Below, one piece after another: positions 44,431-62,043 of a stretch of DNA of 64,000 nt. The notes under the pieces are model-generated. The model ran no database searches. It had not been told where the DNA came from and saw only the letters and a list, made by a program, of their open reading frames with translations. Position 1 is the stretch's first letter, and each line of letters begins with the position of its first letter. The stretch is from Bacteroidales bacterium (lineage in GTDB: Bacteria; Bacteroidota; Bacteroidia; Bacteroidales; UBA932). A program made the translations under genes and the position numbers. The stretch is from contig JAGAIM010000087.1 of assembly GCA_017626555.1 (NCBI GenBank), positions 1 to 64,000 of the forward strand, written 5' to 3'.

Positions 44431-46323
44431 TTATTTATCAATCAGGATCGGCGGAGCGAGCGGAACAAACTGCTCTGAGACATAGTCTGACCTGGTCTCA
44501 GGAGCCTGACCGGTCGCCCTTACGATATCTTTCGCGATGAAGTCATCCATATTGAATGTCTTTCCTGAAGACTTCATAATCCTTCTCACGATAGCCTCAC
44601 GCGAAGGAGCATTGTAATATGGCCTATTGTCTTCCATACAACTGATATACTCCGGCCTCCAGGCTCCGTAATAATAAAGACACGCGCCCTCGAACATATC
44701 TACAGCCTCATATCCCGGACGATCGAAGTAATGCGCCCAATGAACCTGAGACCTGTCACCTGTAATGTCTATATTGTATCCGTAATAAGGATCCCTAGAC
44801 CTCCACGACTTGATCTGACTCTTGATGTCGCTAGGGAGTTCTGACTGGGTATATCTGTACTCGTCGAGAAGCCTTCCGAATCCGTGTCCGCCACCCTCGT
44901 GTGAGACTACGGCCTCGAAAGAATCCTTGCCCATAGGGCACATTGACACAGAGCGTCCGTTATATTCCATCATACAAGTGCCGGCATAAGCATTTACATT
45001 GATCAGAAGGAATACTGTAGTATTCTCCAGATACTCTTCTGTCACGCCGGGAACTTTCTTTGCATAACTGAACACTTTATCATAATTGCAGGAAGTACCT
45101 GTGCTGGTACCGCCCTCAAGGGTAGCGCTGAATGCAGTGTTCCTTTCCTGCTTCTTGACAGTATTCATATCCCTCAGGATCGTTGCCCCGCGTTCCTGAG
45201 AGTAAACTGCAACAGTGCTGATCCTGAAATAGTCTTTGTATGTAGGATATGGCTCTACGCTGAAGAACGCATTTACAGCCGTCTCCACTGCCTGATCAAA
45301 GGCTCCTCCCTCAGTATAATCCTCTTCGATGAATCCGTCACCCATAAAGATAAGGTGGATAGGCTTTGGCGCACCAGCACTTTCCGCTTGATAGAGAGAC
45401 ACCTCTCCATCCTTATATGCTCCTCCGTCACCGGTAGTGAATGTACGCGTCTCGCTCTCTGCAAATGCTCCGAAAGCGTCTATGGCCTGTACCTTCCAGA
45501 GATGCTCCTTACTCTTGGAAAGGAACTGGCTGTGCTTTGTCCTGGTAGCCTGTGTCTCGGTACTTGACCAGGTCGTTCCGCCATCATCGGATATCATAAG
45601 TCTGTAGGAGACCACATCACCGTCCGGATCTGAGGAAGGTTTCCAAGTGAAATATGCATTGATTTTGGTATCGACAGCGCCGTCCTCAGGTGAAACAAGT
45701 TCAGGCTTTGCTGGCGGATCATTAGGGAGCGACTGACTGACAGTCAGCATTGTAAATGACTTGCCGTAATCAACAGTCAGGAATGTCCTGTCTCTCGGAG
45801 TACGGTCAGTGATAGGAGACGGAGTGAGTCTGACATCGGTCTCGCCGGCTGTTCCTGATATAGGATTTGCGGCAATCCAATCAATTTCTTCCGGAATCTC
45901 TATCTTCCAGTCGTATGCTGATACGATCGTAAAGTCAATAGGGGTTCCCTCCGAGTCAAACTCGAAAAGCATCTGGTTGGCAGAAAAATCCACTCCGGCC
46001 TGAGTAAGATTGACCTGGGTCATAGCGCTGCCTCCAGCGATTGTAAGGATTTCCTTTCTTTCAAGTCCCTCGTTCTTGTCTGTCCTGACAGTGACCTGTG
46101 CAGATCCGCTTCCTGAAGAAGGATCGACAGACACCCACTCAGGAGCAGTGATGGTCCATCCGCAATTGGCTGTAATATCCATCGTCTTACTGCCACCATC
46201 CTTTGTCCAGGTAAGTTCGGTCTTCGATGCCACTATGCTGTCTTCCTCCTTGCAGGAATCAGCAACAGTCATAAACAATAACGTCGATACAATCGCCAAC
46301 AGAACTCTGAGATATTGTTTCAT
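44431..46323 (-). CDS. Surface M64 (IgA-type) metallopeptidase with BACON domains
   Basis: A 630-aa predicted lipoprotein (MTVADSC, Cys24). Two BACON modules (about 30-110 and 115-200) and a fibronectin-like module (about 205-295) precede a Peptidase_M64 domain (about 315-580). The zinc site reads SHEGGGHGFGRLLDEY, so His-Glu-Gly-Gly-Gly-His, with one residue more than the classical HExxH of the family. M64 includes IgA-specific enzymes; BACON modules bind glycans or mucin. As last gene of the left Sus operon it should cut host or dietary glycoproteins at the cell surface for uptake by the SusCD pair. Confidence 0.87.
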   Translation of the reverse strand: MKQYLRVLLAIVSTLLFMTVADSCKEEDSIVASKTELTWTKDGGSKTMDITANCGWTITAPEWVSVDPSSGSGSAQVTVRTDKNEGLERKEILTIAGGSAMTQVNLTQAGVDFSANQMLFEFDSEGTPIDFTIVSAYDWKIEIPEEIDWIAANPISGTAGETDVRLTPSPITDRTPRDRTFLTVDYGKSFTMLTVSQSLPNDPPAKPELVSPEDGAVDTKINAYFTWKPSSDPDGDVVSYRLMISDDGGTTWSSTETQATRTKHSQFLSKSKEHLWKVQAIDAFGAFAESETRTFTTGDGGAYKDGEVSLYQAESAGAPKPIHLIFMGDGFIEEDYTEGGAFDQAVETAVNAFFSVEPYPTYKDYFRISTVAVYSQERGATILRDMNTVKKQERNTAFSATLEGGTSTGTSCNYDKVFSYAKKVPGVTEEYLENTTVFLLINVNAYAGTCMMEYNGRSVSMCPMGKDSFEAVVSHEGGGHGFGRLLDEYRYTQSELPSDIKSQIKSWRSRDPYYGYNIDITGDRSQVHWAHYFDRPGYEAVDMFEGACLYYYGAWRPEYISCMEDNRPYYNAPSREAIVRRIMKSSGKTFNMDDFIAKDIVRATGQAPETRSDYVSEQFVPLAPPILIDK

Positions 46324-46422: not shown

Positions 46423-48087
46423 CTACTTTGTAAAGCCACTTCTAAAGTTTTCTTTAAGTTCCTTTACGTGAGTCTTTGCATTTGACATCTGTCGTGTTGC
46501 CGACTCTTCCATTGGCACATACGTCAATTTAGAGCCGTCAGGGCAATATGAGTAGGCGCCAAGATAGGCATCAGTATAGACACCATATTCGCAGTATGAT
46601 ATCTCAGTGAAATAACCTTCTTCATCAAATTTGACTCTAATAGGATCCGCACCGTTGCCTCCTCCAAAGAATACCAATGTTTCTCCGGAATCAAATTGGT
46701 AGAATCCCATTCCGAATGCAGAATCATCATAAATCGCGCCCTTGAACAAGAATGTTCCGTCAAAAACAATTGTAGAAGTCGCATAATCAACTGTTCCTAC
46801 AAGTTGTGGATTAGCAAAGGCTGCTCCTCCATTCAGTTCGAACCAGTCGGCCGACATAACTATAGTACTGTTGTCAAGTTTTTCAAACATTGATATAAAC
46901 TGACTGGTTTCAACCCCTTCCTCAGTATCCCACGCATAGTCTATAAGATAATAGCCCGGTTTAAGATCAACCAGGAAGTTGCTGTACCTGAGTTTTGAAG
47001 GTTCAAATGCAGTGGTCACATTACCCCAAACATCATAGAATGCTCCAGCCGCTACAAGTACATCAAACTCACCGGTAGGCATCTTAGGAAGATAAACAGT
47101 AACAGTCTTGCCATCCTCTCCCAAAGTCCACTCCGCATAAAGAATGCTCTGGCCTTCAGCCTCAAGATAGACCACTGAAATAGGATTCTTGACCTTACTA
47201 TTCACCATCACTTCTGTAGGGAGAGTAAACACAATATTGGCATCTTCAGCCGCCCAATTGACATTATCTGCAGGTTCAGTAAAGTTTGATTCCGTGATAG
47301 GGATAGCGACACTGTCAGTATCCCATCCAAGATTCACATACTCCCCGGTCTGATCGAGTCCTGACACGCACTGCGCACACTTGTTTCCCGATAGGTCAGT
47401 CACGAGACCCTCCTCGAAACTTACATAGTATCCTGCACCGTTTCCAGCCTCAGGGCATACCAAAGTCACAGTGTTTGCCTCAACTGTAATGTTCTCCTCC
47501 GCAATAACCTGATCCTTGACATAATAAGCACTGACACCCCAGGCAATGACTGAGACATAAGCCTTTCCTTTACCACGGACCACTGTCTCGTCGAAAGCGA
47601 GAGTGAGTACATTCTTGTCAAATGACGCACCTGCAGGCTGAGGAATCCAGGTATCGTTCATTGTGACATCAAGGGTCACAACTTCACCGATAAGACCTGT
47701 TTCAGTGATGGCTGCAGCAAAGACCTGATATGTCTCTGCAGGGAATTCAGTACAGTCAACTGTAACCGTATTTTCGAATGAATCCTCTTCACTGAGTGAA
47801 GTGTTGAATGAACCGCTTGCGTCTGCAAGGGCTTCTTCCACAAGGATGTCGTATGCCGAAGGTACAGGATTATCTGATCCTGCGAAAACTGCGTATGCAT
47901 ACTGTGACGCATTCTCAGATGCAGTGATCTCGAAGGACAGAGTCACATCATCAGCAACCTTCTGTTTCAAAGTCACTGAAGGCTTTTCCTTGTCCTTGTT
48001 CTGGTTGTTCAGGACGTTTGCCTCCTCACAAGAGATGAGTATAGAGGCAGCGGCCAGAAAACCAGCAAGATATTTTATTGTCTTCAT
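46423..48087 (-). CDS. Surface lipoprotein with Ig-like domains (left Sus operon)
   Basis: A 554-aa predicted lipoprotein from MKTIKYLAGFLAAAS, lipobox SILISC (Cys20). The acidic linker after Cys is usual for surface-exposed Bacteroidota lipoproteins. The next part (about 35-105) is a beta-sandwich (KPSVTLKQKVADDVTLSFEI). It is followed by two Ig-like repeats of the Big_5 type (ASFDKNVLTLAFDETVVRG; FTLPTEVMVNSKVK) and a C-terminal beta-rich region. No catalytic motif is visible. By position it should be a SusE/F-like ligand-binding protein that feeds the SusCD transporter. The ligand is unknown. Confidence 0.65.
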   Translation of the reverse strand: MKTIKYLAGFLAAASILISCEEANVLNNQNKDKEKPSVTLKQKVADDVTLSFEITASENASQYAYAVFAGSDNPVPSAYDILVEEALADASGSFNTSLSEEDSFENTVTVDCTEFPAETYQVFAAAITETGLIGEVVTLDVTMNDTWIPQPAGASFDKNVLTLAFDETVVRGKGKAYVSVIAWGVSAYYVKDQVIAEENITVEANTVTLVCPEAGNGAGYYVSFEEGLVTDLSGNKCAQCVSGLDQTGEYVNLGWDTDSVAIPITESNFTEPADNVNWAAEDANIVFTLPTEVMVNSKVKNPISVVYLEAEGQSILYAEWTLGEDGKTVTVYLPKMPTGEFDVLVAAGAFYDVWGNVTTAFEPSKLRYSNFLVDLKPGYYLIDYAWDTEEGVETSQFISMFEKLDNSTIVMSADWFELNGGAAFANPQLVGTVDYATSTIVFDGTFLFKGAIYDDSAFGMGFYQFDSGETLVFFGGGNGADPIRVKFDEEGYFTEISYCEYGVYTDAYLGAYSYCPDGSKLTYVPMEESATRQMSNAKTHVKELKENFRSGFTK

Positions 48088-48112
48088 AATCAATTCAATT
48101 TAAAGTTCAATA

Positions 48113-49063
48113 TTACTTACGAGTCATAACAACGTCACCGAATGCCATCCAATATCCGTAGTATTCCCCACTTACGCCCCATACGGTAGCAACCAGATAA
48201 TAACCTTTCTCGAATGTAATGGTATTCATATCCTCACTCCAAGTAGCCTTGATCTGGTAATCGTGATCTGTTGACATTTTACCGTCGGCAGTCGGTGTTC
48301 CGGCAGCAAACTTCACTTCAACATCCTCATCAATACCATTGAATGACCAGATATTAGCCATAAGTTCACCGCTCTTGGTAGAAAGAATTTCTTCTTCGGC
48401 ATTGTAGTTCAGATACCATACAGGCTGTTTTACCGGAGTATATTTTCCACCGTATGATGTAAGATCTTTCATCTGGCCACCAAATCCCCAGCATACAAGA
48501 ATCTTCTCAAAATTGACATCCTCTTCTTCAGTAGAGAATCCACCACTGATGTTCACATCGAATGTAGAACCGTCAGAAGCCTTGGCAACCCAATTTCCCA
48601 TAAGTCTTTCGTAAGGGTTGTTGTCGTTGTCGGCAAGTTCGATTGAAGCCTTTCCAGTACCGGCAAGGGCAGCACCATTTACATTAGCGATGGAAAGATT
48701 GATGAATCTCGAATCATTGATCTCCTGATTGTCAAAAATCTGGAATTCAAGATATGCAGGAGCCTCCGGATCACCGGCATACTTGAGACCTTCAGTCTGA
48801 GTGAAGTGTACAAGTTCCTCGATCTTGACCCCAGTTCCCTCGACCTCTGCAACGATGTCGAAAGTGATAGGATATGACTTTGGCTCGCCTGTGAACTGGA
48901 TAGGAATCTTCACAAGTCCTGCGCTTTCTTTATATACATAGGTATCTTGTGCAAAACCGATAGTCGCATCACCTTTCCCCTGAGGCTCCTCCTGTTCGCA
49001 AGACGTAGCGAAAGCAAGCACGAGGGCTGAAGATGCGATCATAATATTTCTAAATAATTTCAT
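48113..49063 (-). CDS. Surface lipoprotein, Calx-beta-like (left Sus operon)
   Basis: A 316-aa lipoprotein (lipobox FATSC, Cys22). Residues about 33-150 resemble a Calx-beta/DUF1735-like module (GFAQDTYVYKESAGLVKIPI .. ASIELADND), often found next to SusD in Bacteroidota. The rest is a beta-rich domain with many aromatic residues (GYYLVATVWGVSGEYYGYW). It is likely a surface accessory protein of the SusCD complex that binds the substrate or the partner lipoprotein. It lies 25 bases after susD. Confidence 0.65.
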   Translation of the reverse strand: MKLFRNIMIASSALVLAFATSCEQEEPQGKGDATIGFAQDTYVYKESAGLVKIPIQFTGEPKSYPITFDIVAEVEGTGVKIEELVHFTQTEGLKYAGDPEAPAYLEFQIFDNQEINDSRFINLSIANVNGAALAGTGKASIELADNDNNPYERLMGNWVAKASDGSTFDVNISGGFSTEEEDVNFEKILVCWGFGGQMKDLTSYGGKYTPVKQPVWYLNYNAEEEILSTKSGELMANIWSFNGIDEDVEVKFAAGTPTADGKMSTDHDYQIKATWSEDMNTITFEKGYYLVATVWGVSGEYYGYWMAFGDVVMTRK

Positions 49064-49088: not shown

Positions 49089-50600
49089 CTAATTGTTTGT
49101 ATAACCTGGATTCTGAGTCATCTGAGGGTTAGCCTGCATCTCATCCACAGGGATCGGCCACACAAAGAGAGGACTGTCCGCTTCCATTGAAAGACCCGCG
49201 TACTTCTCACCCGGCATCACAAGTTCAGGATTCTGTCCCGCAGACCTTGTGAAACCTATATGCCAACGCTTGAGGTCGTTCATACGATGGCCTTCACCGA
49301 AGAGTTCACGTACTCTTTCCTGACGGAGTTCTACCACAAGAGCGTCTCCGGAATAGTCAGTATTCTTCCAACCTGCTATACGTGCTGCCCTTAAATCGTT
49401 GATATACTTGCTTGCAACGAGATCCTGCCCGCCCTTATTGACAGCAGCCTCAGCAGCGATAAGATACATCTCCGAAATCCTGAAGATCTTAGGCATATTC
49501 ACATAGTTGGTTACCGCAGAATAAAGTTTAGGGTTTCCAGGGTATTTTACAAGAAGCGTGAGGGTTCCCACAACCGGAGTAGTGATATTGCGGGTATCGA
49601 ACCAAGACTGATAACGGATATCGTTCTCCTTATCATACAGATTAAGAGCCCAGTCTTCCGGAACATACTGAGGGTTATCCTCTCCTTCCTTGCCTGAAGT
49701 ATTGTAGATAAAGTATGAGAATGCGTTTCCAAGGTCATCCGGACCAGTCATTGCAGCCTGCCAGATAGTCTCTGAAAGATTGTCATTTGTCCAGCCGTCC
49801 GCGAATGTCCTGACATCTGTAACGAGTCTGTACTTTCCTGAATCGATAAGCGACTTTGCCTTGAGAAGCGCTGTATCATAATCGTGCATCATAAGAGCCA
49901 CACGCGCCTGAAGAGCAGTCACCACATCAGCAGTAATATATGCAGAACCGACTGACCCGGCAACAGTCACATATTTCTCAGCCTCTGCAAGATCTGCAAG
50001 AATCTGATCGTAGGTAGCCTGAAGTGTCGGACGTGAAGGATACTTCGATGAATCTCCGGTAGGTGCATACTCGAGGACTACAGGCACGCCAAGAAACTCC
50101 TCGGCAGTGTCAGGATCGTAGTCTGCGCAGAAATAGCAGCAAAGTTGATAATACATATGAGCCCTGAGGTAGCAAGCCTCTCCGTAATAGAGTTCTACTG
50201 TCTTTGTGTCAGCCTCGTCGAGGGTGCCGGCAGCAAGAAGTTTCTGAGTACCTTCTATAAGGAAGTTGGCGTTGGAAATGATGCTGTATAATCCGAACCA
50301 CGCTGAACTTGCCATACCTTCAGAAGTGGTCACCGAATAATGGTACCAGGCTCCCTGGAAGTTACCGAAATTCTTTACGGCGTGGTAAAGGTCTGCCTGA
50401 AGATCAGGCACGTAAACATACGCACCGGTGAATACACCCTTTGTTCCGGAGTACAGACCATTGCGGAATGCCTCGCAGTCTGCAACACTTTCCATAGCCT
50501 CTTCAGTATTGATTGCATTGTCCGGGAACTTGTCCAGACTGCAGGCGCTGAAGGTTATGAGGGCTGCAGCAATTATAAGGATTGTCTTTATATTTTTCAT
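49089..50600 (-). CDS. SusD/RagB-family surface lipoprotein (left operon)
   Basis: A 503-aa SusD homolog: lipobox ITFSAC (Cys20) and the TPR-based fold of the family (EACYLRAHMYYQLCCYF; RISEMYLIAAEAAVNKGG; LRQERVRELFGEGHRMNDLKRW). SusD acts as the lid of the SusC barrel and captures ligand at the cell surface. An ATG four codons earlier (50612) is equally possible. It follows susC after 16 bases. The ligand is unknown; neighbours suggest peptides or glycopeptides. Confidence 0.93.
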   Translation of the reverse strand: MKNIKTILIIAAALITFSACSLDKFPDNAINTEEAMESVADCEAFRNGLYSGTKGVFTGAYVYVPDLQADLYHAVKNFGNFQGAWYHYSVTTSEGMASSAWFGLYSIISNANFLIEGTQKLLAAGTLDEADTKTVELYYGEACYLRAHMYYQLCCYFCADYDPDTAEEFLGVPVVLEYAPTGDSSKYPSRPTLQATYDQILADLAEAEKYVTVAGSVGSAYITADVVTALQARVALMMHDYDTALLKAKSLIDSGKYRLVTDVRTFADGWTNDNLSETIWQAAMTGPDDLGNAFSYFIYNTSGKEGEDNPQYVPEDWALNLYDKENDIRYQSWFDTRNITTPVVGTLTLLVKYPGNPKLYSAVTNYVNMPKIFRISEMYLIAAEAAVNKGGQDLVASKYINDLRAARIAGWKNTDYSGDALVVELRQERVRELFGEGHRMNDLKRWHIGFTRSAGQNPELVMPGEKYAGLSMEADSPLFVWPIPVDEMQANPQMTQNPGYTNN

Positions 50601-50616
50601 AATCGTCTTCATTTAT

Positions 50617-53589
50617 TTAGAATACCAATTCTGCTCCGAATACAAACTGGCGTGAGTTAGGATACATACCAGATGTTGCGTTAGAGGCTCCCACTTCAGG
50701 GTCATATCCTGCGAAGTCGGTTACTGTCCAGAGGTTACGTGCCGTAAGATAAATCTTGAGTCCTGAAAGAACCTTGCTCTTCTGGATCATCTCAGACGGG
50801 AACGCGTATGATACGGACAGATTCTTCAGACGCATAAACGATGCGTTGGAGAAACGTGCTGTATCGTGATAGAACTGTGTTCCGTATTTAGGGATATCGG
50901 TCACGTCACCAGGCTTCTGCCAGATGTCAAGCATCTTTGTCTCGAAGTTGCTTGAGAAAAGGAGGTTCTGAGGGTTCATTGTATAGTAACGCTCGTTGAT
51001 GAAGATCCAGCGTTCTCCGATCCAAGAGAAATCGGCATTGATTCCCAGACCCTTCCAAGAGAAGTTGGTAGAAAAACCTCCTGACCAAGGGGCATTTGTA
51101 TCCATTCCGCAGAACTGCATAATGTCATCAGAATAGGTCTTGGTAAGGTTGCCGTTGAGGTCATACCACATAGGAGCGCCGTCCTGAGGGTCAACGCCTG
51201 CACGTACCTGTGTATAAACAAGAGATGAAGGCATACCTACCTGATATTTGAGAGAGTAGTCAGGGAATGCAAGTTCGTCAAGACCCTGATAGAGTTTGGT
51301 GATCTTGTTCTTGTTGTAGTTCACGTTTGCCCTGACTCCCCAATAAACGTTCTTTGTGTGAACGAGGTCGAGTTCCACATCAAGATCAACTCCGGTATTC
51401 TTCATCTCAGCGATGTTACCCATTCCGCTTGCGTGACCTGTAGTGCCGGAGAAAGGAAGTTCCATAAGAAGGTCTGAAGACAATCTGTCATAGAACTCCA
51501 GGCCGAGGGTGAGTCTGTCCCAGAGACGAGTATGGAGACGTACGTTGAGTGTAGCAACTGTCTCCCAAGTGAGGTCTGCGTTAGGAACCTGTGCGAGTGC
51601 CCATCCTGCCTTTCCGTTATATTTAGGGCCGGCACCGACGAGACCAAGAGACTCATACCAACTGTTAAGGCCTGCATTACCTGTGGTACCGTAACTTACG
51701 CTGAGGCTGAGGTCGTTCACCCAATTCACATTCTGAAGGAAAGGTTCGCTTTTTGCTTTCCACATACCGCCGAACGAGTAGAATGTAGCGTATCTGTGGT
51801 TCTTGCCGAAAAGTGATGAACCATCGGTACGAACCGATGCATCAAGGAAGTATCTGTCTGCGTAGTTGTAGTTGACATTTCCAAAGAATGAGTTGAATGC
51901 ACACTCTGAAGTACCGCCGGCCCAGTCACTGATGTCTGTAGTCGAGCCGAAGTTCACGATACGGTCATCAGTAAGTCCTGTACCGGTAGCATTGAAACTC
52001 TCGGTATGACGGATGAACGACTCGTGGCCTGCAAGAGCAGCGAAGAAATGCTTCTTGTTGATATCGGTCTTGTACTCCACAGTATTTGTTGAAGACAACT
52101 GATAATATCTTTCAAATGCCTGAGAGTTACGTCCTCTTGCAGAGAATGGTTCATACGAAGGATAGTTGATGGCCTCTCCCTTGTAGTCATATCCGTCGAT
52201 AGCCTGCTGGGCACGGATCGTAAGACCCTTCATTGGAGTAAGGAGGAAATAAGTCTGACCCATAAGGCTGAGATTCTCCTTCATATTGGTATTCTTCTCA
52301 TAATACTTGTTGAGGTCGATCATATTATCCCAAGGATATACCTCGTAAGGATCTCCCCAAGAGATTGTTCCATCCGGATTATAAATGATCTCGTATGGTG
52401 ACTTGTAAGGAAGTGCAGTCACAGCCTGAAGGATAGGTGACTGAGTGTACCAACCTGTAACGATGGTCTGATAGCCTGAATATGTCAAGGCGACATTTGC
52501 GCCGAACTTGAGCCAGTCAGTAACCTGAGTGTCGAGATTTGTACGGAAAGTGAAGCGATCGACACCTGAGTTAGCCTTTGCCGTACCTTTCTCAGAATAG
52601 TAACCAAGTGATACATAGTAGTTTGTCTTCTCAGATGCACCACGGATGGAAGCATCTGCCTGAAGGACAGGAGCCGCATCATTGAAGAGATAGTCAGTCC
52701 AGTCGAAGTTGATGCCGTTTCCAAGAACAAAAGCCTTCTCTGCCTGATAAGCCGGGTCGAATTTAAGTTCCGGAACACATATCTCTTCGAACTGGAACAA
52801 CTGCTCGGAAGTCATCATCTCCATATTATAGTTGGTAAGCATCGAGATACCATACTGACCTCGGAATGAAACGCTTGGCTTCTCACCCTGCTTACCCTTC
52901 TTCGTAGAGATGAAGATGACTCCGTTAGCCGCACGCGAACCATAAATCGCTGTAGAAGAAGCATCCTTAAGAACTGAAATGTTCTCAATATCCTGAGGGC
53001 TGATGCTGTTGAATACATCCGAACTTACCGGCACACCGTCAAGGATGTAAAGAGGAGCCGTGCTGAGATTGAGCGATGACTCGCCACGGAGCCTCACACT
53101 GACGCTGCTCTGAGGCTCTCCTGAAGTGTTGAAGATCTGAAGACCCGCAACCTTTCCCTGCAGGGCATCTCCGATGTTAGCAGAAGGTCTGGATGCAATC
53201 TCGTCTGACGATACTGTAGTCACGGAACCAACGATGTTACCGATCTTCTGACCGGTACCGTAACCTACGACGATAGTGGCATCAAGGAACTCTGCATCTT
53301 CCTCGACCTGAATGGCGATGAACGTCTTGCCATTGATATCGACAGTCTGGGTCGCATATCCGATGATGGATACGATAAGTTGACCGTTCGAAGGCGCATT
53401 TACCTTGAATTGTCCATCAGCATCAGTCGAAGTTCCGGTCTGTGTGCCGGCTACCATTACGGTAGCGCCGATAACCGGCTGGTCATTACTGTCAGTAACG
53501 ACACCGCTCACAGTGATGTTCTGGGCAAATGCGGAAACCGAAGCCAGCAACATCACCATTACCGTGAAAAAAAGTCTGATTCTTTTCAT
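50617..53589 (-). CDS. SusC/RagA-family TonB-linked outer-membrane transporter (left operon)
   Basis: A 990-aa receptor: signal peptide (residues 1-22, ..SVSAFA), N-terminal carboxypeptidase-regulatory-like domain (ITVSGVVTDSNDQPVIGATV), plug (about 110-230, with LYILDGVPVSSDVF and STAIYGSRAANGVIFISTKK) and a 22-strand barrel ending in FGAELVF. It imports the bound substrate with TonB energy. The region upstream of its start is the left inverted repeat, and I see no TAnnTTTG promoter pointing to it, so it appears silent in this orientation. Confidence 0.95.
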   Translation of the reverse strand: MKRIRLFFTVMVMLLASVSAFAQNITVSGVVTDSNDQPVIGATVMVAGTQTGTSTDADGQFKVNAPSNGQLIVSIIGYATQTVDINGKTFIAIQVEEDAEFLDATIVVGYGTGQKIGNIVGSVTTVSSDEIASRPSANIGDALQGKVAGLQIFNTSGEPQSSVSVRLRGESSLNLSTAPLYILDGVPVSSDVFNSISPQDIENISVLKDASSTAIYGSRAANGVIFISTKKGKQGEKPSVSFRGQYGISMLTNYNMEMMTSEQLFQFEEICVPELKFDPAYQAEKAFVLGNGINFDWTDYLFNDAAPVLQADASIRGASEKTNYYVSLGYYSEKGTAKANSGVDRFTFRTNLDTQVTDWLKFGANVALTYSGYQTIVTGWYTQSPILQAVTALPYKSPYEIIYNPDGTISWGDPYEVYPWDNMIDLNKYYEKNTNMKENLSLMGQTYFLLTPMKGLTIRAQQAIDGYDYKGEAINYPSYEPFSARGRNSQAFERYYQLSSTNTVEYKTDINKKHFFAALAGHESFIRHTESFNATGTGLTDDRIVNFGSTTDISDWAGGTSECAFNSFFGNVNYNYADRYFLDASVRTDGSSLFGKNHRYATFYSFGGMWKAKSEPFLQNVNWVNDLSLSVSYGTTGNAGLNSWYESLGLVGAGPKYNGKAGWALAQVPNADLTWETVATLNVRLHTRLWDRLTLGLEFYDRLSSDLLMELPFSGTTGHASGMGNIAEMKNTGVDLDVELDLVHTKNVYWGVRANVNYNKNKITKLYQGLDELAFPDYSLKYQVGMPSSLVYTQVRAGVDPQDGAPMWYDLNGNLTKTYSDDIMQFCGMDTNAPWSGGFSTNFSWKGLGINADFSWIGERWIFINERYYTMNPQNLLFSSNFETKMLDIWQKPGDVTDIPKYGTQFYHDTARFSNASFMRLKNLSVSYAFPSEMIQKSKVLSGLKIYLTARNLWTVTDFAGYDPEVGASNATSGMYPNSRQFVFGAELVF

Positions 53590-53689
53590 CTGGTTGAACT
53601 TTTAGTTGTTAAACATAAATATTAAATAAATTCATTTTAGTACGCTACACTACATACTAACTTGCACTATAAATCGAGCGTTTTTCAGA
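53583..53689. repeat. Left inverted repeat of the invertible promoter switch
   Basis: This 107-bp stretch is repeated in inverse orientation at 54495-54594. Block A (53583-53626) is identical over 44 bp, covers the first 7 bases of susC and its leader. Block B (53662-53689) matches over 27 of 28 bp: TTGCACTATAAAT, one variable base, GAGCGTTTTTCAGA. The part between is less similar but shares TACACTACA. Block B borders the segment carrying the recombinase and is the better candidate for the crossover site. Confidence 0.9.
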
Positions 53690-53710
53690 CGCACAAAAAC
53701 TTCATAAATT

Positions 53711-54310
53711 ATGTCAGTATATGCCTATATCAGGGTCAGCACAGAGATGCAGACCTATGCCAGCCAGAAATATGAAATCGAAAGATACTGCAAGCAGCAG
53801 CGGCTCACAGTAACAGAATGGGTATCAGAATCCGTATCAGGAACAATTGCAGTAGAAAAAAGGGTATTAGGAGGTTTGCTGGATCGGATGAAGGAAGGTG
53901 ATGTCCTCATCTGCTCCGAACTATCTCGCCTCGGACGCAATATGCTTATGATAATGTCCATACTGAACATTTGCGCAAGCAAGTGTATATCAATCCATTC
54001 CATTAAGGATCACTTTGACCTTACGGACAATATAAATTCGAAGATCATAGCCTTTGCCTTTGCTCTTGCGGCAGAAATTGAAAGGAATCTGATATCCCAG
54101 AGAACAAAAGAAGCACTTGCTGCAAAAAGAATGGAAGGGATACGCCTCGGACGTCCGCCGGGAAGTTCAAAAAAGAAGGTTACATTCTGTAAGGAATATG
54201 ATAAAGTAGTAGGTATGATGGAGGGTGGAAAGTCACTTTCTTATATAGCCAAATCTCTGGGAATCCATAGAAACACGTTAAAAAGATACCTTGACGATAT
54301 TAAATCATAA
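53711..54310 (+). CDS. Serine site-specific recombinase, Mpi-like DNA invertase
   Basis: A 199-aa small serine recombinase. The catalytic Ser10 is in VYAYIRVSTEMQ, the arginine block is ICSELSRLGRNMLMI, and ALAAEIERNLISQRTKEALAA is the long E-helix. The C-terminal helix-turn-helix is SYIAKSLGIHRNTLKRYL. The wording closely resembles Mpi, the invertase that flips capsule promoters in Bacteroides fragilis. Its start lies 22 bases from the left repeat and it is enclosed by inverted repeats, so its own promoter segment is the likely substrate. No clear promoter for the gene itself is visible. Confidence 0.93.
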   Translation: MSVYAYIRVSTEMQTYASQKYEIERYCKQQRLTVTEWVSESVSGTIAVEKRVLGGLLDRMKEGDVLICSELSRLGRNMLMIMSILNICASKCISIHSIKDHFDLTDNINSKIIAFAFALAAEIERNLISQRTKEALAAKRMEGIRLGRPPGSSKKKVTFCKEYDKVVGMMEGGKSLSYIAKSLGIHRNTLKRYLDDIKS

Positions 54311-54449
54311 TCATAATGTAAAGTTATAAATTTAAACTATTTTACGAGTTCCGATTACCTTTATTTCGTTTTAGAATGAAAGAACTAAAACATTTAAACA
54401 AAATGATTTATATTTTATTTACACAAACACTCGTAACGGACACATAAAA

Positions 54450-54481
54450 TTTGGAATTGAAAGATAATATGATTATATTTG
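54450..54481 (+). promoter_or_regulatory. Consensus promoter inside the invertible segment, facing the right operon
   Basis: TTTG (54450-54453), exactly 20 bases, then TATATTTG (54474-54481) is a full match to the Bacteroidota consensus TTTG-N19-21-TAnnTTTG. Transcription would start near 54488, just inside the segment, and read through the right repeat as a leader of about 100 bases to susC at 54589. It is the best promoter in the window. Confidence 0.85.
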
Positions 54482-54494
54482 CGATTCGAGTTGT

Positions 54495-54594
54495 TCTGAA
54501 AAACGCTCCATTTATAGTGCAAAGTGTAGTGTAACAATAACACGAATTTATTTTAATATTTATGTTTAACAACTAAAAGTTCAACCAGATGAAA
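54495..54594. repeat. Right inverted repeat of the invertible promoter switch
   Basis: The inverse partner of 53583-53689. Block B is 54495-54522 (27 of 28 bp, differing at 54509), block A is 54551-54594 (44 of 44 bp). It forms the 5' leader of the right susC and covers its first six coding bases. The two leaders would therefore be nearly the same RNA whichever operon is on. Confidence 0.9.
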
Positions 54595-57500
54595 AAGATC
54601 AAACTATTTTTCATTGCAATGGCAACGCTTGTGTCGGCTCTGGCCTATGGTCAGAACCTGACAGTGACAGGTGTTGTCTCGGATTCTTCCACTGGTGAAG
54701 GCGTGCCTTACGCATCAATTCAACTCAAGGGTACGATGACTGGAGTCAGCACTGACGGCGATGGACGCTATTCAATCTCTGTGCCTGCTGACGGAGTGCT
54801 TATCTTCTCTTCTGTAGGATACGTCTCACAGGAGATCCAGGTATCTGGGAAAGCCAAACACGACGTTCTTCTTTCACCTGATACCCAGGCGCTCGAAGAA
54901 ACCATCGTGGTCGCATTCGGTACAGCGACAAAAGAATCATTCACAGGATCGGCTACAGTCGTAAAGTCTGACGACATCGCAAAGGTGCAGTCATCAGATG
55001 CTACACGTGCTCTCGAAGGAGTTGTTGCCGGTGTCCAGATGACCACATCTTCAGGATCGCTCGACAGTAAGCCAAGCATCATCATCCGTGGTATCAGTTC
55101 AATCTCTGCAGGTACAGCACCTCTCTACATCGTGGACGGTGTGCCTTACAGCGGTGATATGAACAATATCAACTCTGCGGATATCGAGTCGATGACAGTC
55201 CTCAAGGACGCTGCTTCAAACGCCCTCTACGGTGCCCGCGGTGCCAACGGTGTGATTATGATCACCACCAAGAAGGCAAAGGCTGGCGACGCTCAGGTAA
55301 ACTTCGAGGCTAAGGTGGGTCTCAACACAAAGGCTCTTCAGAACTACGACTACATCCAGGATCCTGCTACATACTATGAGACTCACTACGGTGCTCTCTA
55401 CAACTACTACAGGAACGAGCAGGGTCTTTCACATCTTGAAGCAAATGCAAAGGCTGCCACAAACGTTGCAGGTCCTGCTGCTGACGGTGGCCTCGGTTAC
55501 CTCATCTACACTGTTCCGGAAGGACAGGCATTCATCGGTACCAACGGTAAGATCAACCCTAACGCAACATACGGAAGGACAGTCAATTACAACGACCAGG
55601 AATACCTCCTCATAGGTGACAACTGGATGGACGAGACTTACAAGCAGTCTATCCGCCAGGAGTACAACCTCAACGTTTCCGGTACTTCAGGAAAGGCTTC
55701 ATTCTTCGGATCGATCGGTTACCTCAACAACAAGGGTATCGTTGACGGAGCGGATATGTATCGTTACACTGCACGTATGAAGACCGACTATCAGGCAAAG
55801 AAATGGCTGAAGGTTGGAATGAATATGGGTTACACCAAGTTCAACTGGAACAACGGTAACTCTGACGAGGGTTCTGCAGGTTCGACAGGTAATATGTTCA
55901 GATTCGCAGCAACTATGGCTCCTATCTATCCTGTTTACATCAGGGACGCACAGGGAAATATTCTCAGAGACCAGAACGGTTTCCTCAGATATGACTATGG
56001 TGATGGAAAGAACGCTGGTATGATCCGTCCTGCATCTCCAAACTCCAATGCCCTCCAACTTGCAACTCTCGATATGAACAACGCAGAGGGTAATGCATTC
56101 ACAGGCAACGGTTTCACAGAGATCACATTCCTCAAGGACTTCACTCTCAACGTGAACGCTGGTTTCGGTGTTGATGAGACAAGAAGCCGTTCAATCAACA
56201 ATATGTATTACGGACAGTTCGCACCTACAGGCGGTACAATCCAGGTAGGTCACAGCAGAAGTTACTACTTCAACTTCCAGCAACTCCTCTCTTGGAACAG
56301 AAGTTTCGGTGCACACAACGTAAACGTTCTCCTCGGACACGAGTCATATCTCAGCCAGAGTTACTCAGTAAGCGGTTACAAGACCAACCTCTTCTCATTG
56401 GACAACACCGAACTTAACGGTGCCGTTGTCGATGGACAGGCTGCAGCATCAACAAGAAGCGAATACAACAACGAAGGTTACTTCGCACGCGCACAGTACG
56501 ACTATGACAACAGAGTATTCCTCAGCGCTTCATATCGTCGCGACGCATCTTCACGCTTCCATCCTGATCACAGATGGGGTGACTTCTGGTCATTTGGTGC
56601 CGGCTGGCTCATCAACCACGAGCCTTGGTTCAACGCTCCTTGGATCGATATGCTCAAGATCAAGGCATCTATCGGTAGCCAGGGTAACGACAACATCGGT
56701 AACTACCGTTACACCGACCTTTACTCTATCTCAAACAACGAGGGACAGATCGCTATCGCATTCGGTTCAAAGGGTAACAAGGAGATTTCTTGGGAGACCA
56801 ACACCAATATGAACGCCGGTGTTGACTTCGACTTCTTCAAGGGCAGACTCAGCGGTACAATCGAGTACTTCTACAGAAAGACTTCAGATATGCTCTTCTG
56901 GTTCACAGTGCCTGCATCACTCGGATACTCAGGATATTATGACAATATCGGAGATATGAGAAATGCCGGAGTCGAGTTAGCCCTCAACGGTGTGCTCTTC
57001 AACAAGAAGAATTTCTACTGGGATGTAAATGTGAACGCTACACACTACACCAACAAGATCACTATGCTCCCTGCAGAAAGAAAGACACGTAATATCGAAG
57101 GCTACGAAGGTTATGCAAGCGGCAACAAGTTCATCGGTGAAGGCCTTTCACTCAACACATTCCTTATGCCTAAGTATGCAGGCGTTGACAAGACCAACGG
57201 TCTGCCTATGTGGTACAAGGATGTTTACCAGTTGGACGAGGATGGCAACCAGGTACTTGATGCAGACGGCAACCCTATCGTAACAGGACGTGAGACCACT
57301 ACTTCTTATTCTGATGCTACTGAGTATCTCTGCGACAACCCTACTCCACTCCTTTACGGTGGATTCGGTACAAGCCTCAGATTCTACGGCTTTGACGTTG
57401 CAGCACAGTTCACATACTCTATCGGAGGTCTTACATACGACTCAGGTTACGCTTCACTCGTAGGCGCACCTTCACAGCCAGGTAGCAACGTTCACGTTGA

Positions 57501-57831
57501 CGTCCTCAATGCTTGGAGCGAGACTAACAAGGATTCTGATATGCCGCGTTACCAGTATCTCGACGAGAACATCAACGCTACTTCAGACCGCTTCCTCGTT
57601 GATGCAAGTTACCTCAACATCCAGAACGTACAGGTAGGTTATACTCTTCCTCAGAGACTCACTATGAAGATGAAGATCAGCCGAATCAGAGTATTCGCAT
57701 CTTGCGACAATGTATTCTACTGGTCATACAGAAAGGGTCTCGACCCACGATACAGTTTCACAGGTGCAACTAACTATGCAAACAACTCACCTGTAAGAAC
57801 AATTTCAGGAGGTCTTAACATCACATTCTAA
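54589..57831 (+). CDS. SusC/RagA-family TonB-linked outer-membrane transporter (right operon)
   Basis: A 1080-aa SusC homolog with signal peptide (MKKIKLFFIAMATLVSALAYG), regulatory-like domain (LTVTGVVSDSSTGEGVPYAS), plug (LYIVDGVPYSGDMN; NALYGARGANGVIMITTKK) and barrel. The start resembles the left SusC, but the barrel differs in length by 90 residues, so different ligands are expected. Codons are strongly biased to CTC, AAC and TTC, as in highly expressed genes. The consensus promoter at 54450-54481 points at it, so this operon should be on in the sequenced orientation. Confidence 0.96.
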   Translation: MKKIKLFFIAMATLVSALAYGQNLTVTGVVSDSSTGEGVPYASIQLKGTMTGVSTDGDGRYSISVPADGVLIFSSVGYVSQEIQVSGKAKHDVLLSPDTQALEETIVVAFGTATKESFTGSATVVKSDDIAKVQSSDATRALEGVVAGVQMTTSSGSLDSKPSIIIRGISSISAGTAPLYIVDGVPYSGDMNNINSADIESMTVLKDAASNALYGARGANGVIMITTKKAKAGDAQVNFEAKVGLNTKALQNYDYIQDPATYYETHYGALYNYYRNEQGLSHLEANAKAATNVAGPAADGGLGYLIYTVPEGQAFIGTNGKINPNATYGRTVNYNDQEYLLIGDNWMDETYKQSIRQEYNLNVSGTSGKASFFGSIGYLNNKGIVDGADMYRYTARMKTDYQAKKWLKVGMNMGYTKFNWNNGNSDEGSAGSTGNMFRFAATMAPIYPVYIRDAQGNILRDQNGFLRYDYGDGKNAGMIRPASPNSNALQLATLDMNNAEGNAFTGNGFTEITFLKDFTLNVNAGFGVDETRSRSINNMYYGQFAPTGGTIQVGHSRSYYFNFQQLLSWNRSFGAHNVNVLLGHESYLSQSYSVSGYKTNLFSLDNTELNGAVVDGQAAASTRSEYNNEGYFARAQYDYDNRVFLSASYRRDASSRFHPDHRWGDFWSFGAGWLINHEPWFNAPWIDMLKIKASIGSQGNDNIGNYRYTDLYSISNNEGQIAIAFGSKGNKEISWETNTNMNAGVDFDFFKGRLSGTIEYFYRKTSDMLFWFTVPASLGYSGYYDNIGDMRNAGVELALNGVLFNKKNFYWDVNVNATHYTNKITMLPAERKTRNIEGYEGYASGNKFIGEGLSLNTFLMPKYAGVDKTNGLPMWYKDVYQLDEDGNQVLDADGNPIVTGRETTTSYSDATEYLCDNPTPLLYGGFGTSLRFYGFDVAAQFTYSIGGLTYDSGYASLVGAPSQPGSNVHVDVLNAWSETNKDSDMPRYQYLDENINATSDRFLVDASYLNIQNVQVGYTLPQRLTMKMKISRIRVFASCDNVFYWSYRKGLDPRYSFTGATNYANNSPVRTISGGLNITF

Positions 57832-57843
57832 AGGAGAACAGAT

Positions 57844-59517
57844 ATGAAAACATTAAAATATTTATCACTCGCCGCAGGACTTGTGCTTGCTGTCGGATGT
57901 ATCAAGGAGACTTTCCCTCAGGGAAGTACCCAGACCTCCGCTCAGGTGGCTCAGTCGTCATCAGCGTTGAATGCGATGGTCAATGCCATCCCATCTTCAA
58001 TGACTACTACCGACTTCCTCGGATACCTCACAAATTATGGTGACCATACAGACTTCGGATATCCGGGAATTGCTTTCCGTACAGAGAATATGCTTGAGGA
58101 CCTTGTAACAAGTGGTGAGAACCCTTACTACAACCGTGCTCTCGCATACGCACAGAACCAGGCTCAGGGATCAGTTTATATCTACTGCGCATATTTCTGG
58201 GATGCATACTACACATATATCAAGTCTTGTACTGATATCATCTCTACAATCGACCCTGAGAATGCAAACGCAGAGGCTCTCAATTTCCTCGGTATCGCTC
58301 ACGCATACAGAGCATTGTTCTACCTCGACCTTGCACGTCTTTTCGAGGCAAAGCCTAACAAATACACTGACGTAAGCAATGTTCTTGGCCTCACAGTGCC
58401 TCTCGTAACAGAGGAGACTACAGAAGAGAGTGCTATCAACAACCCACGTGTTCCAAGAGAAGAAATGTACGCATTCATTCTTTCTGAACTTGCAAAGGCA
58501 GAAACATACATCGACCAGGCAGCAACAGGTTACACCAAGCCAAGCCTCGGAGCGATCTATGGTCTCTACGCACGTACATATATAGAGATGGGTGCTGCAG
58601 GTGATCCCGGCGCATACGCAAAGGCTGCAGAATATGCTGACCTCGCAATCCAGAAGAGCGGCAAGACTCCTCTTACACAGGAGCAGTGGGAGGATCCTGC
58701 AAACGGATTCAACAACGGTGCTGCCAACAACTCTTGGATCTGGGGTCTCACAGTATCTGCAGAGAACGTAGGTAACATCTTATGCTTCACTGCACATATG
58801 GCTTCAGAAGGTACTTGGGGATATGCTCCTCGCTCACAGATCTGCGTAAGCAAGCGTCTCTATGAGCAGATCAGCGACAAGGACTTCAGAAAGCACTCTT
58901 GGCTCGACCCTGAATACATCGCAAACCCTGCAGCAGGCAAGCCATACGACTACAAATTCGCAGGAGACGAATCAGATAAGGCTGCTTTCCTTAACGGAGG
59001 TATGAACCCTAAAGCAATTGCATACCAGAACATCAAGTTCCGTCCGAAGAACGGCGAGACTATCGACTACACCAACGGTAACCCTACCGACTTCCCTATT
59101 ATGCGTGTAGAGGAGATGTACTTCCTCAAGGCTGAGGCTCTCGCAGGTGACGGTAAGATCGCTCAGGCTCAGACTGTCCTCAACGACTTTATGAAGACCC
59201 GTATCCTTGACGGTTCATACAGTTGCTCAGCATTCACAGACTTCGAGTCATTCACTGACGAACTTCTTCTCCAGAAGAGAATCGAGTTCTGGGGCGAGGG
59301 TATCCTGATCTATGACTACAAGCGTCTTGACGAAGGTATCACAAGAGGTTACAAGGGCACAAACCAGGCAGCGGTTTACTGCTACAACTGCGAAGGACGT
59401 TCACCACAGTGGAACATCGTTATCACTCGTGGAGAGTTCCAGTCCAACAAGGGTATCACAGACGCTACCAACAACCCTGACCCATCAGACGCACTTACAC
59501 TGTGGGATGGAAAGTAA
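57844..59517 (+). CDS. SusD/RagB-family surface lipoprotein (right operon)
   Basis: A 557-aa SusD homolog with lipobox LAVGC (Cys19). Family blocks are IAHAYRALFYLDLARLFEA, PIMRVEEMYFLKAEALAG and LLLQKRIEFWGEGILIYDYKR. It is the surface lid and capture protein for the SusC encoded 12 bases upstream. It is not closely similar to the left SusD. Ligand unknown. Confidence 0.94.
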   Translation: MKTLKYLSLAAGLVLAVGCIKETFPQGSTQTSAQVAQSSSALNAMVNAIPSSMTTTDFLGYLTNYGDHTDFGYPGIAFRTENMLEDLVTSGENPYYNRALAYAQNQAQGSVYIYCAYFWDAYYTYIKSCTDIISTIDPENANAEALNFLGIAHAYRALFYLDLARLFEAKPNKYTDVSNVLGLTVPLVTEETTEESAINNPRVPREEMYAFILSELAKAETYIDQAATGYTKPSLGAIYGLYARTYIEMGAAGDPGAYAKAAEYADLAIQKSGKTPLTQEQWEDPANGFNNGAANNSWIWGLTVSAENVGNILCFTAHMASEGTWGYAPRSQICVSKRLYEQISDKDFRKHSWLDPEYIANPAAGKPYDYKFAGDESDKAAFLNGGMNPKAIAYQNIKFRPKNGETIDYTNGNPTDFPIMRVEEMYFLKAEALAGDGKIAQAQTVLNDFMKTRILDGSYSCSAFTDFESFTDELLLQKRIEFWGEGILIYDYKRLDEGITRGYKGTNQAAVYCYNCEGRSPQWNIVITRGEFQSNKGITDATNNPDPSDALTLWDGK

Positions 59518-59544: not shown

Positions 59545-62043
59545 ATGAAACTCAATAAGATTTTATTTTCATTGATGGCGGCATTCTCTCTTCTGGCAGT
59601 TTCTTGCCAGGAGGAGATTGCATACACGCCAGGTGAGCCGGATCTTGAGGGTTGCTACGGAGTATATTTCCCTACTCAGGAGGCAGCCGGTGACCACACT
59701 ATGGATCCTAGCGAGGTTCCTGCAGTGCAGTTCACTGTAAAACGTCTCAAAGAAGATGGCAACATCACTGTTCCTGTGAATGTAACGGCTTCAGAAGAGG
59801 GCATCTTCCAGGTGTCAGAACTTACTTTCGCTGATGGTCAGTCTGAATCGAATGTCACTGTAACCTTTGACAATGCACAGCCAGGTACAGAATACACTTT
59901 GAAACTTGAGATCAATGACCCTCAGTATGCATTGAAATATGGAGCAAATCCGACATTCCTTACATATTCTGTAATTATCGAAAGGTATGACCTTATGGGT
60001 ACTGCTCTTTACAGGGAAGACCTCCTTACTGCACTCTTCTCTTTCAATGGTGATCCTAATCCGGAATGGGAGGTAGAAGTATATACTAAGGAAACAAACC
60101 CCGGATATTACTACCTCAAGAATGTCTATCAGCCTGGCGTATCTCCTCTGTTTGACCCGAATGGGACTGTTACAGATACGTATATGATCATTGATGCAAC
60201 AAATCCGCAGAGAGTAATTCTTCCGTTCCAGTACCTTGGATGTAACCTCGGATATGGTGAGTGTGCTGCTGGTTCATACGCTCCTGAAGGAGGATTCAAT
60301 GTGGATCCGTCAGCGGCTCTTTACGGAACCCTCATCAATGGCGTGATAACTTTCCCTAACGACGGCCTTCTTTTCGGTATGAGCGAATATAACGACTTCG
60401 GTTTCTATCTTGGCAACGGTTCAGGTATGTTCCGAGTTATCCTTCCTGGCGCAGTCCTCGTTGACTACACCATTGAAATGTCGTCACAAATAACAGAAAA
60501 CGGAGTGATGCCGCTCGAGTTCACATTCGGAGCAGATATTGAAACTATCAAATATGCTGCTTACGCTGGTCAACTTAGCAAGGAAGAACTTGCTGAGAAA
60601 GTCACAGAAGTTGCAGCCAGCACAACAGCCGCAACTGTAAGTAAGCCTGCAGCAGATGGTGAAGGCAATGTACCTGCAGCGGTTGTCAACCTTTCATTTG
60701 AGAAGACAGGCGAATACACAATTGTTGCTGTTGGATATGACAAAGATAATACCGCTCAAAATTCCGCATCTCTCGTTATAGAGTATGTTGCTGCAGGAGA
60801 TGAGGTACCTGTTGTTATCAGTGCCGGACTTGGCTCTGCTGACAAGTATGTTCCGCTTGGTAAGAGTCCGGAAACTGCAGTTGAGTTCTATATTTATGGA
60901 AGCGATATCAAGGATCTCAAAATCGGTCTTTTCACAACAGCAAGCCTAATGGCAGATCAGCAGGGATGCATCGGATCTGTATTGGCAAGTCAGTCGGCTC
61001 CTGCTGAGATTCTCGATGAAGTAAACAATGGAGTATATGTTGATGTATTCGAAGGTCTTACACCTGGAACAGAATATTATCTCATCGTTTATGCAGCAAA
61101 CGGCTACGAAGAGAAAATGATCCTTTCAGACCCAATCACCACAGCAGGTGATCCACTTCCTGTTTACCAGACCTATACTATGAATGATATTGCTGACGAA
61201 CTTCTCCCAATGACATCTGAGGGATACTTCGGAGAATACAACTATTATTCAAAGAACCTAGGTCTCAAAGTTCCTCAAACCCTCAGAAATTATCAGGGCA
61301 CCGTAACTATATCAGATTCAGAAAAGCCTGATATTCCTGCAGAAGAGGATCCTAACGGATATGGTCTGCCTACAGAGTATGTTGACGTGAAGGGTCTCTA
61401 TAGTAGCGATGCTGAATATTGGGGATTTGATGACACTATGCCGTTCGAGTTCTACGATGGAGTATTATACTCTATAGCTTGGGGATTTGATCAAGCAGAA
61501 ACAGGTTACTATCCTGCAACTATGTATGCAACCCCTGCAGGTTCACTCAATTTCTACAACTACACTATGATTGGTGCATTTGTTAAAGAGGGTTATATCG
61601 CCTTTGTTGACGGTACGGACGGTCAGATTCTTCCTACTTTCTATCTTGGAATGTTCAGTGATGAAGCCTACTCATCATTTGCAGGTGTAGGTGCAGCATA
61701 CGGAGATGCACTTTTGATCGATCCTGCAGTTGACGATAACGGACTGGTTCCTGAAAAGGCTGCTGCTTCAGCGATTAGCAGGGCTGATCTTGACAATATT
61801 CAGTTCACTCTCGCATCGGATGCAAATTACGTAGAAACCGAGCGCGGACACATTCATTCTACTATTGATAAAGTTCTTGCTACCAAGCAGACTCCTAAGT
61901 CTGTCGGTAAGATGGCTGGAATCAAGGGTGAATGGAGCGCTCCAGTTATTGAGTTCACTGCTGTAGAGGCTGAGCCTGTTTTCAAAAACTACAACACAGA
62001 TTACAAAAAGATCAATGATGCAAAACCTGCATTGTACAGATAA
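59545..62043 (+). CDS. Large surface lipoprotein of the right Sus operon
   Basis: An 832-aa lipoprotein (lipobox LLAVSC, Cys21). The N-terminal part (about 45-150) resembles the Calx-beta-like module of the left operon's 316-aa protein: VQFTVKRLKEDGNITVPVNV then LKLEINDPQYALKYG. A fibronectin-like module lies near 410-530 (GLTPGTEYYLIVYAANGYEE). The C-terminal third is rich in Tyr, Gly and Asp. No enzyme motif is seen. It probably combines the roles of the two left lipoproteins as a ligand-binding partner of SusCD. One of the four AGCT sites is here (61476). Confidence 0.68.
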   Translation: MKLNKILFSLMAAFSLLAVSCQEEIAYTPGEPDLEGCYGVYFPTQEAAGDHTMDPSEVPAVQFTVKRLKEDGNITVPVNVTASEEGIFQVSELTFADGQSESNVTVTFDNAQPGTEYTLKLEINDPQYALKYGANPTFLTYSVIIERYDLMGTALYREDLLTALFSFNGDPNPEWEVEVYTKETNPGYYYLKNVYQPGVSPLFDPNGTVTDTYMIIDATNPQRVILPFQYLGCNLGYGECAAGSYAPEGGFNVDPSAALYGTLINGVITFPNDGLLFGMSEYNDFGFYLGNGSGMFRVILPGAVLVDYTIEMSSQITENGVMPLEFTFGADIETIKYAAYAGQLSKEELAEKVTEVAASTTAATVSKPAADGEGNVPAAVVNLSFEKTGEYTIVAVGYDKDNTAQNSASLVIEYVAAGDEVPVVISAGLGSADKYVPLGKSPETAVEFYIYGSDIKDLKIGLFTTASLMADQQGCIGSVLASQSAPAEILDEVNNGVYVDVFEGLTPGTEYYLIVYAANGYEEKMILSDPITTAGDPLPVYQTYTMNDIADELLPMTSEGYFGEYNYYSKNLGLKVPQTLRNYQGTVTISDSEKPDIPAEEDPNGYGLPTEYVDVKGLYSSDAEYWGFDDTMPFEFYDGVLYSIAWGFDQAETGYYPATMYATPAGSLNFYNYTMIGAFVKEGYIAFVDGTDGQILPTFYLGMFSDEAYSSFAGVGAAYGDALLIDPAVDDNGLVPEKAAASAISRADLDNIQFTLASDANYVETERGHIHSTIDKVLATKQTPKSVGKMAGIKGEWSAPVIEFTAVEAEPVFKNYNTDYKKINDAKPALYR

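Follow-up and report, generated by a model that had tools for sequence, protein, structure and literature searches.

The window analysed here, a 64,000-nucleotide stretch of Bacteroidales bacterium (GenBank assembly GCA_017626555.1, contig JAGAIM010000087.1, positions 1 to 64,000), contains a short segment with a serine recombinase gene and one outward-pointing promoter, which is enclosed by inverted repeats and lies between two divergent SusCD-peptidase operons. Judging from sequence comparisons, this locus very likely is a self-contained either/or switch, in which promoter inversion selects between the two operons. An earlier note on this DNA had proposed an invertible promoter segment for both operons, and the proposal is supported by central dinucleotides that are identical in 49 of 49 pairs of crossover sites, by a promoter on one side of the segment only, and by the occurrence of both orientations among relatives.

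According to the proposed mechanism, dimers of the recombinase would bind two inverted copies of the site TGCACTnnTAAACG-NN-CGTTT. To judge by its enzyme family, the recombinase would then cleave both sites at their central dinucleotides and rejoin the ends after rotation, and the segment of ~0.83 kb between the cores would flip. Located 3' of the recombinase gene, the single promoter would drive whichever operon faces it, and the operon facing away would be left with a leader in which no promoter of that consensus is seen. In the assembled orientation, the operon encoding an S8 subtilase would be ON and the operon encoding an M64 peptidase OFF. From the DNA we infer four points: the inversion is the work of the recombinase, flipping takes place inside populations, the promoter is active, and only one of the two operons is expressed at a time.

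Anatomy of the segment

The inner inverted repeats (positions 53662-53689 and 54495-54522) agree at 27 of 28 bases and enclose 805 bp. They represent the left crossover site (53662..53689, plus strand; core AG at 53677-53678) and the inverted right crossover site (54495..54522, minus strand), which has the same core AG on the minus strand (54506-54507). The outer inverted repeats (53583-53626, minus strand, and 54552-54595, plus strand) are identical over 44 of 44 bases, and each comprises the leader and start codon of a susC gene, susC-A on the left and susC-B on the right. The alignment score of the inverted repeats is 78.8, compared with at most 16.2 across 500 shuffles. Between the sites lie the recombinase gene (53711..54310, plus strand) and, just inside the right site, a predicted invertible promoter of the Bacteroidales type, which was located by motif search (TTTG-N20-TATATTTG, 54450..54481, plus strand) and points outward to the right-hand susC. 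The window locus thus has inverted repeats around an outward promoter, as expected for an inverton. Repeats, recombinase gene, and a single outward promoter in the 805-bp segment were all found base for base as the earlier note had given them, and its view of the repeats as leaders of two divergent susC genes agrees with the extent of the 44-bp blocks. Its description of ~100-bp repeats holds for the blocks of 44/44 and 27/28 bp, but not for one continuous repeat of 100 bp, because a poorly matching stretch separates the 28-bp site block from the 44-bp leader block. An 18-mer of the window's leader (53606-53623) has two exact copies on contig C135 (G000:C135); at least one of them is located beside genes that by eye resemble two-component regulators, and no recognised susC adjoins them.

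Crossover cores and promoter in related loci

A search of 398 genomes of the family and 400 of the genus gave 47 recombinase matches at E≤1e-60 and 109 at E≤1e-50, and 80 places, mostly the better-scoring ones, were taken for comparison. The recombinase tree (80 rows) contains a branch with full support that splits 67 proteins, including that of the window, from 13 sister proteins; one copy with a stop codon (L098) was left out of this tree. The clade comprises 68 loci (64 of the genus, three of the family, and the window). The crossover site, derived from the aligned repeats of many loci, is TGCACTnnTAAACG-NN-CGTTT, a partial dyad. Sites were scanned for with a matrix blind to the two central bases at a threshold of 10 bits (in shuffled regions, the 95th percentile was 8.8 bits and the maximum 20). 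Both sites were detected in 43 of the 68 loci, and in all 43 the central dinucleotide agrees, whereas random pairing of the cores predicts 12.2 agreements and reached at most 24 in 20,000 permutations. Agreement is likewise complete at a stricter threshold of 14 bits (40/40), and a wider scan of the remaining 25 loci added six further pairs, all with agreeing cores (49/49 in total). None of the 25 dinucleotide offsets lying clear of the core reaches full agreement (8-38 of 43); the conserved half-sites come closest. The cores of the paired loci vary between genomes (GG, AG, GT, TC, GA, and TT) and are never palindromic; with one site counted per locus, the recombinase tree requires at least 14 core changes. 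As in systems of the Hin type, the invertase gene lies inside the segment and the inverted sites have identical cores. For Hin, PMC4513852 states that the recombinant form is not ligated if a mutated core cannot base-pair, and that the parental sequence is mostly restored. Because a mispaired core blocks ligation in Hin, identical cores are what strand exchange between inverted sites demands, and since the cores are non-palindromic, recombination should be forced to inversion. Among individual loci, the left site of L054 (G288:C17) matches the pattern on both strands and forms a nearly perfect dyad with both half-sites in full. In L099, L100, and L103, the left site is located 1.0-1.3 kb from the recombinase and the segment holds extra DNA.

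On the 3' side of the recombinase gene, the promoter pattern [CT]TTG-N22-24-TTTG was found in 50 of 59 loci, a count that is partly fitted because the regular expression was picked after the alignments had been viewed. The same expression was used for the mirrored left end of the segment, where it matched in 0 of 48 loci, and for shuffles, which gave a mean of 3.45 and a maximum of nine. In 44 loci, the distance from the end of the pattern to the right core, measured inside the segment, is 21-27 bp; in the other six it is 86-88 bp. Scored for TTTG plus a TA box, 16 of the 59 right sides reached the full 10 out of 10, compared with a maximum of 8 among the 48 left controls. Delimited leaders, from the site to the susC start, contain the pattern in 1 of 42 cases on the left and 0 of 53 on the right, and the strict -7 box TANNTTTG occurs in none of these 95 leaders beyond the sites. 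Because the pattern is almost absent from the leaders, the promoter inside the segment is the sole one of this consensus that was found for the two operons. A generic sigma-70 scan (five found, 4.5 expected) was uninformative, as was a terminator scan.

The site counts also bear on the range of the enzyme. In the window's own genome, the site pattern is matched exactly at two places, one of them the left crossover site, and both are at the switch. In 20 relatives, 26 of 28 matches with at most one mismatch lie at the switch; four of these genomes lack any match because the pattern is strict. An arrangement of the Mpi type, with one enzyme and many distant invertible promoters, was not seen in these scans. 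Thus the recombinase does not look like a genome-wide master such as Mpi, and from the site counts it would serve its own pair of sites.

Orientation and operon exchange among relatives

Neighbourhoods were compared for 66 loci, with up to ~20 kb per side as contigs permitted (80 of 85 listed far-flank regions were fetched, and G201 and G363 were dropped from the anchor counts). Anchors were at least two shared genes outside the operons per genome pair, and anchor orientation was set by majority. At shared chromosomal places, the recombinase has the same orientation in 73 pairs and the opposite one in 75 (148 pairs from 47 genomes, which are not independent), and this split is unchanged between anchor counts based on all hits and on reciprocal best hits. 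Pairs anchored on both sides number 10 with the same and 17 with the opposite orientation; at a mean anchor identity of at least 90%, the figures are seven and four. A two-state reading of orientation is contradicted by one of the 148 edges. Three larger neighbourhoods hold both orientations, in ratios of 10:6 (including the window), 8:8, and 5:3, and show at least four, five, and three changes, respectively, on the recombinase tree. Related genomes thus have both orientations at one place, as expected for an inverton. The earlier note had named conservation of the arrangement across species without any inverted form as the finding that would speak against it, and this is not what is seen. The genome G608 has the window's whole left (M64) operon and one gene beyond on the promoter side (identities of 73, 72, 58, 57, and 75%); the similarity extends to the core, which is AG in the window and GG in G608, and is at background level inside. 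A homologue of the window's S8 operon is found in G041 on the side away from the promoter. A comparison of flanks by DNA alone, in which 13 of 32 flank families occurred on both sides and 31 of 82 matching pairs on opposite sides (125 flanks, some without SusC), was set aside, because it mixes inversion with slot exchange, and chromosomal anchors were used instead.

Contig ends are located less than 420 bp from the recombinase in 11 of 67 loci, compared with 1.8 expected; this excess is only suggestive, because the limit was chosen after the ends had been seen and long repeats alone could contribute. It bears on the question of whether the switch is a fossil or acts very rarely, so that it inverted in evolution and its orientation is effectively fixed in living cells. 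We consider this quite improbable. Such inactivity would fit the 12 of 68 loci that have neither a detectable second site nor a nearby contig end, and also the recombinase copy with a stop codon. It is at odds, however, with cores that stay identical in every pair despite at least 14 core changes, with the presence of both orientations even at the highest anchor identities, and with the contig ends near the recombinase, which mixed orientations would give.

The operons themselves have also changed places. G322 and G437 have common left-hand chromosomal genes, and a 96-98% identical SusCD pair occupies the left slot in one and the right slot in the other. Fifteen pairs could be scored for both anchors and operons. 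Nine fit no change or an inversion of the segment, and six require a slot change of the operon (four with the same anchor orientation and operons in opposite slots, two with opposite anchors and operons in the same slot). Where both flanking SusC proteins are at least 50% identical, four pairs are parallel and two swapped; in G570 and G041, the swap covers one operon with five gene matches and, from the other operon, its first gene. Alternatively, then, the main source of the orientation differences might be exchange of whole operons combined with homologous recombination at the repeated leaders, the recombinase not being responsible. The six pairs whose slots do not track the anchors, and the displaced SusCD pair of G322 and G437, are in line with this explanation, which nevertheless is rather unlikely: in three of the 15 pairs, including the window and G608, the operon stays on the anchor's side while the recombinase is turned round, and operon exchange does not predict identical cores in the two sites.

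Several observations weigh against the promoter-inversion switch. Since operons also change slots, homologous recombination could account for some of the scatter in orientation, and three small neighbourhoods (of three, two, and two genomes) show a single orientation. A second site was undetected in 19 of the 68 loci even by the wide scan; a contig end lies within 310 bp on the missing side in seven of these and in 12 it does not. Moreover, flanking offsets of the two sites agree above random pairing at nearly all positions. The two arms therefore evidently share a history, and the complete agreement at the core alone exceeds what this history accounts for. The promoter motif is missing from nine of 59 right sides, of the 43 two-site loci just 19 have the strict -7 box on the right and two have it on the left, and no promoter was found for the recombinase itself, the motif occurring in three of 48 upstream regions. 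Finally, the window's own genome has five weaker site matches at two mismatches, one of them with an AG core, compared with one in the reversed control.

Because operons change slots and 48 of 61 SusC arms with at least four genes in view carry a peptidase matching the window's S8 or M64 enzyme, the locus looks like a platform carrying exchangeable cargo of one functional type. The chances may be about even that it is a two-slot expression platform, where an invertase with a private code would select the slot. Over evolutionary time, interchangeable SusCD-peptidase operons, all retaining the common leader, would be loaded into the slots anew; they would pass from one ON-capable slot to the other and from species to species, while place and switch stay.

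The recombinase, its surroundings, and known systems

The recombinase is a small serine recombinase (DNA invertase) of 199 amino acids, identified from its open reading frame and from matches in Pfam (Resolvase, PF00239, E 9e-32, and HTH_7, PF02796) and NCBIfam. It has the catalytic domain, the C-terminal helix-turn-helix, and the first-motif serine of this group, with Ser10 in the YIRVS motif (MSVYAYIRVS); Ser10 also is the catalytic residue of Hin (PMC4513852). The earlier note had called the enzyme Mpi-like. The likeness is real, but curated membership of the Mpi family is not supported: the protein scores 259.9 bits with NF009949 'Mpi family', for which the cut-off is 272, and belongs to a separate clade. 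Five other members of this clade score 242-263 bits, and five sister proteins 306-340. The closest named relatives are proteins of two Candidatus Cryptobacteroides genomes (71%), and the genus of the clade probably is Candidatus Cryptobacteroides, with some family relatives in addition; in the records seen, the genus is represented by metagenome-assembled genomes. A plasmid search gave identities below 60% among the matches listed, and comparisons with PHROGs and PDB gave matches at family level. Three further loci stand apart. L098 (G363:C47) has a recombinase copy with an internal TAG stop and a left site that was not found, and might be a frozen switch. L131 (G166:C52) contains two sister-type recombinase genes in opposite orientation, ~300 bp apart and with equal scores. 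In L243 (G608:C69, positions 1-310), inspected by eye, the contig starts inside a crossover-type site whose inverted partner, matched in the site scan of the relatives too, follows ~260 bp on; an outward promoter-like stretch and a SusC-like open reading frame are present without a recombinase, and genes resembling the G322/G437 anchors are nearby. This perhaps is a short satellite inverton with core GA.

SusC matches flank the recombinase on both sides in 45 of the 68 clade loci and on one side in 10 more, where the other flank is cut by a contig end; 13 loci do not fit this layout. A resolvase-family protein between inverted repeats could in principle be a mobile element, either a resolvase-type transposon or a phage remnant, that lies between two operons by chance. 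We give this hardly any credence, in view of the constant place between divergent susC genes, the single match to the recombinase in its own genome (E≤0.001), and viral contigs in which five pattern matches yielded no confirmed relative. In the window, the left operon is encoded on the minus strand and, as assembled, leads away from the promoter. It starts with SusC-A (50617..53589; open reading frame and profile matches) and continues with SusD-A (49089..50612; open reading frame and Pfam), two genes that appear lipoprotein-like by eye and lack Pfam matches (48113..49063 and 46423..48093), and a protein with a BACON domain and an M64 peptidase (44431..46323; Pfam). On the promoter side, the right operon is encoded on the plus strand and comprises SusC-B (54589..57831; open reading frame and profile matches), SusD-B (57844..59517; open reading frame and Pfam), a large gene that is lipoprotein-like by eye and has a sub-threshold Pfam match to fn3 (59545..62043), and the S8 subtilase (62129..64000; Pfam), which continues beyond the window to contig position 64090.

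Promoter inversion between opposed surface genes has a precedent in sapA of Campylobacter fetus, where one promoter is flipped between two opposed surface-protein genes in an either/or manner. That inversion involves a large segment and S-layer genes, depends on RecA, and is not known to have a dedicated invertase inside, whereas the window segment is small, adjoins SusCD-peptidase operons, and contains the invertase gene. In Salmonella Hin, the invertase gene also lies inside the segment and the core has 2 bp, but the promoter is known to drive an operon on one side only; the window locus has operons on both flanks. Two inverted sites, strand exchange at core base pairs, and a catalytic Ser10 are common to both systems (PMC3798978 and PMC4513852). 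Mpi of Bacteroides fragilis represents the closest curated family (NF009949) and likewise is a serine recombinase that flips surface-gene promoters in Bacteroidales. It was reportedly described by Coyne in 2003. For Mpi, 13 regions are stated in PMC4747536. The window's clade differs in its scores, which lie below the cut-off in six of six proteins scored, in having a local pair of sites where Mpi has many distant ones, and in the position of the gene inside the segment. The SusC/SusD shufflons of Tsr0667 (a tyrosine recombinase by name) and the promoters of Tsr19, a tyrosine recombinase, in B. fragilis differ as well: they are clusters of the shufflon type, or pair a local promoter with a distant one (PMC4747536). 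Inversions in gut metagenomes likewise place invertible regions beside SusC/SusD-type systems (PMC10939037, in part), and inverton catalogues likewise contain the Bacteroides promoter motif inside invertons (PMC11892184, in part). In the partial literature surveyed, we found no two-operon SusC switch with a resident serine recombinase, and the accounts of phase variation in gut Bacteroidales that it contains mostly concern Bacteroides, with its capsules, shufflons, and single promoters (PMC4747536, PMC11892184, PMC10939037).

The locus would represent an either/or switch dedicated to SusCD-peptidase surface machines, in a genus outside the mostly described Bacteroides cases. Its core dinucleotide, which varies between genomes and is constant within a locus, constitutes a natural comparative series for the specificity of serine recombinases. 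If the two-slot platform is real, it would be a commensal counterpart of antigen expression sites. If the switch operates as proposed, each strain would comprise two cell types, which might matter for nutrition, phage receptors, and immune targets.

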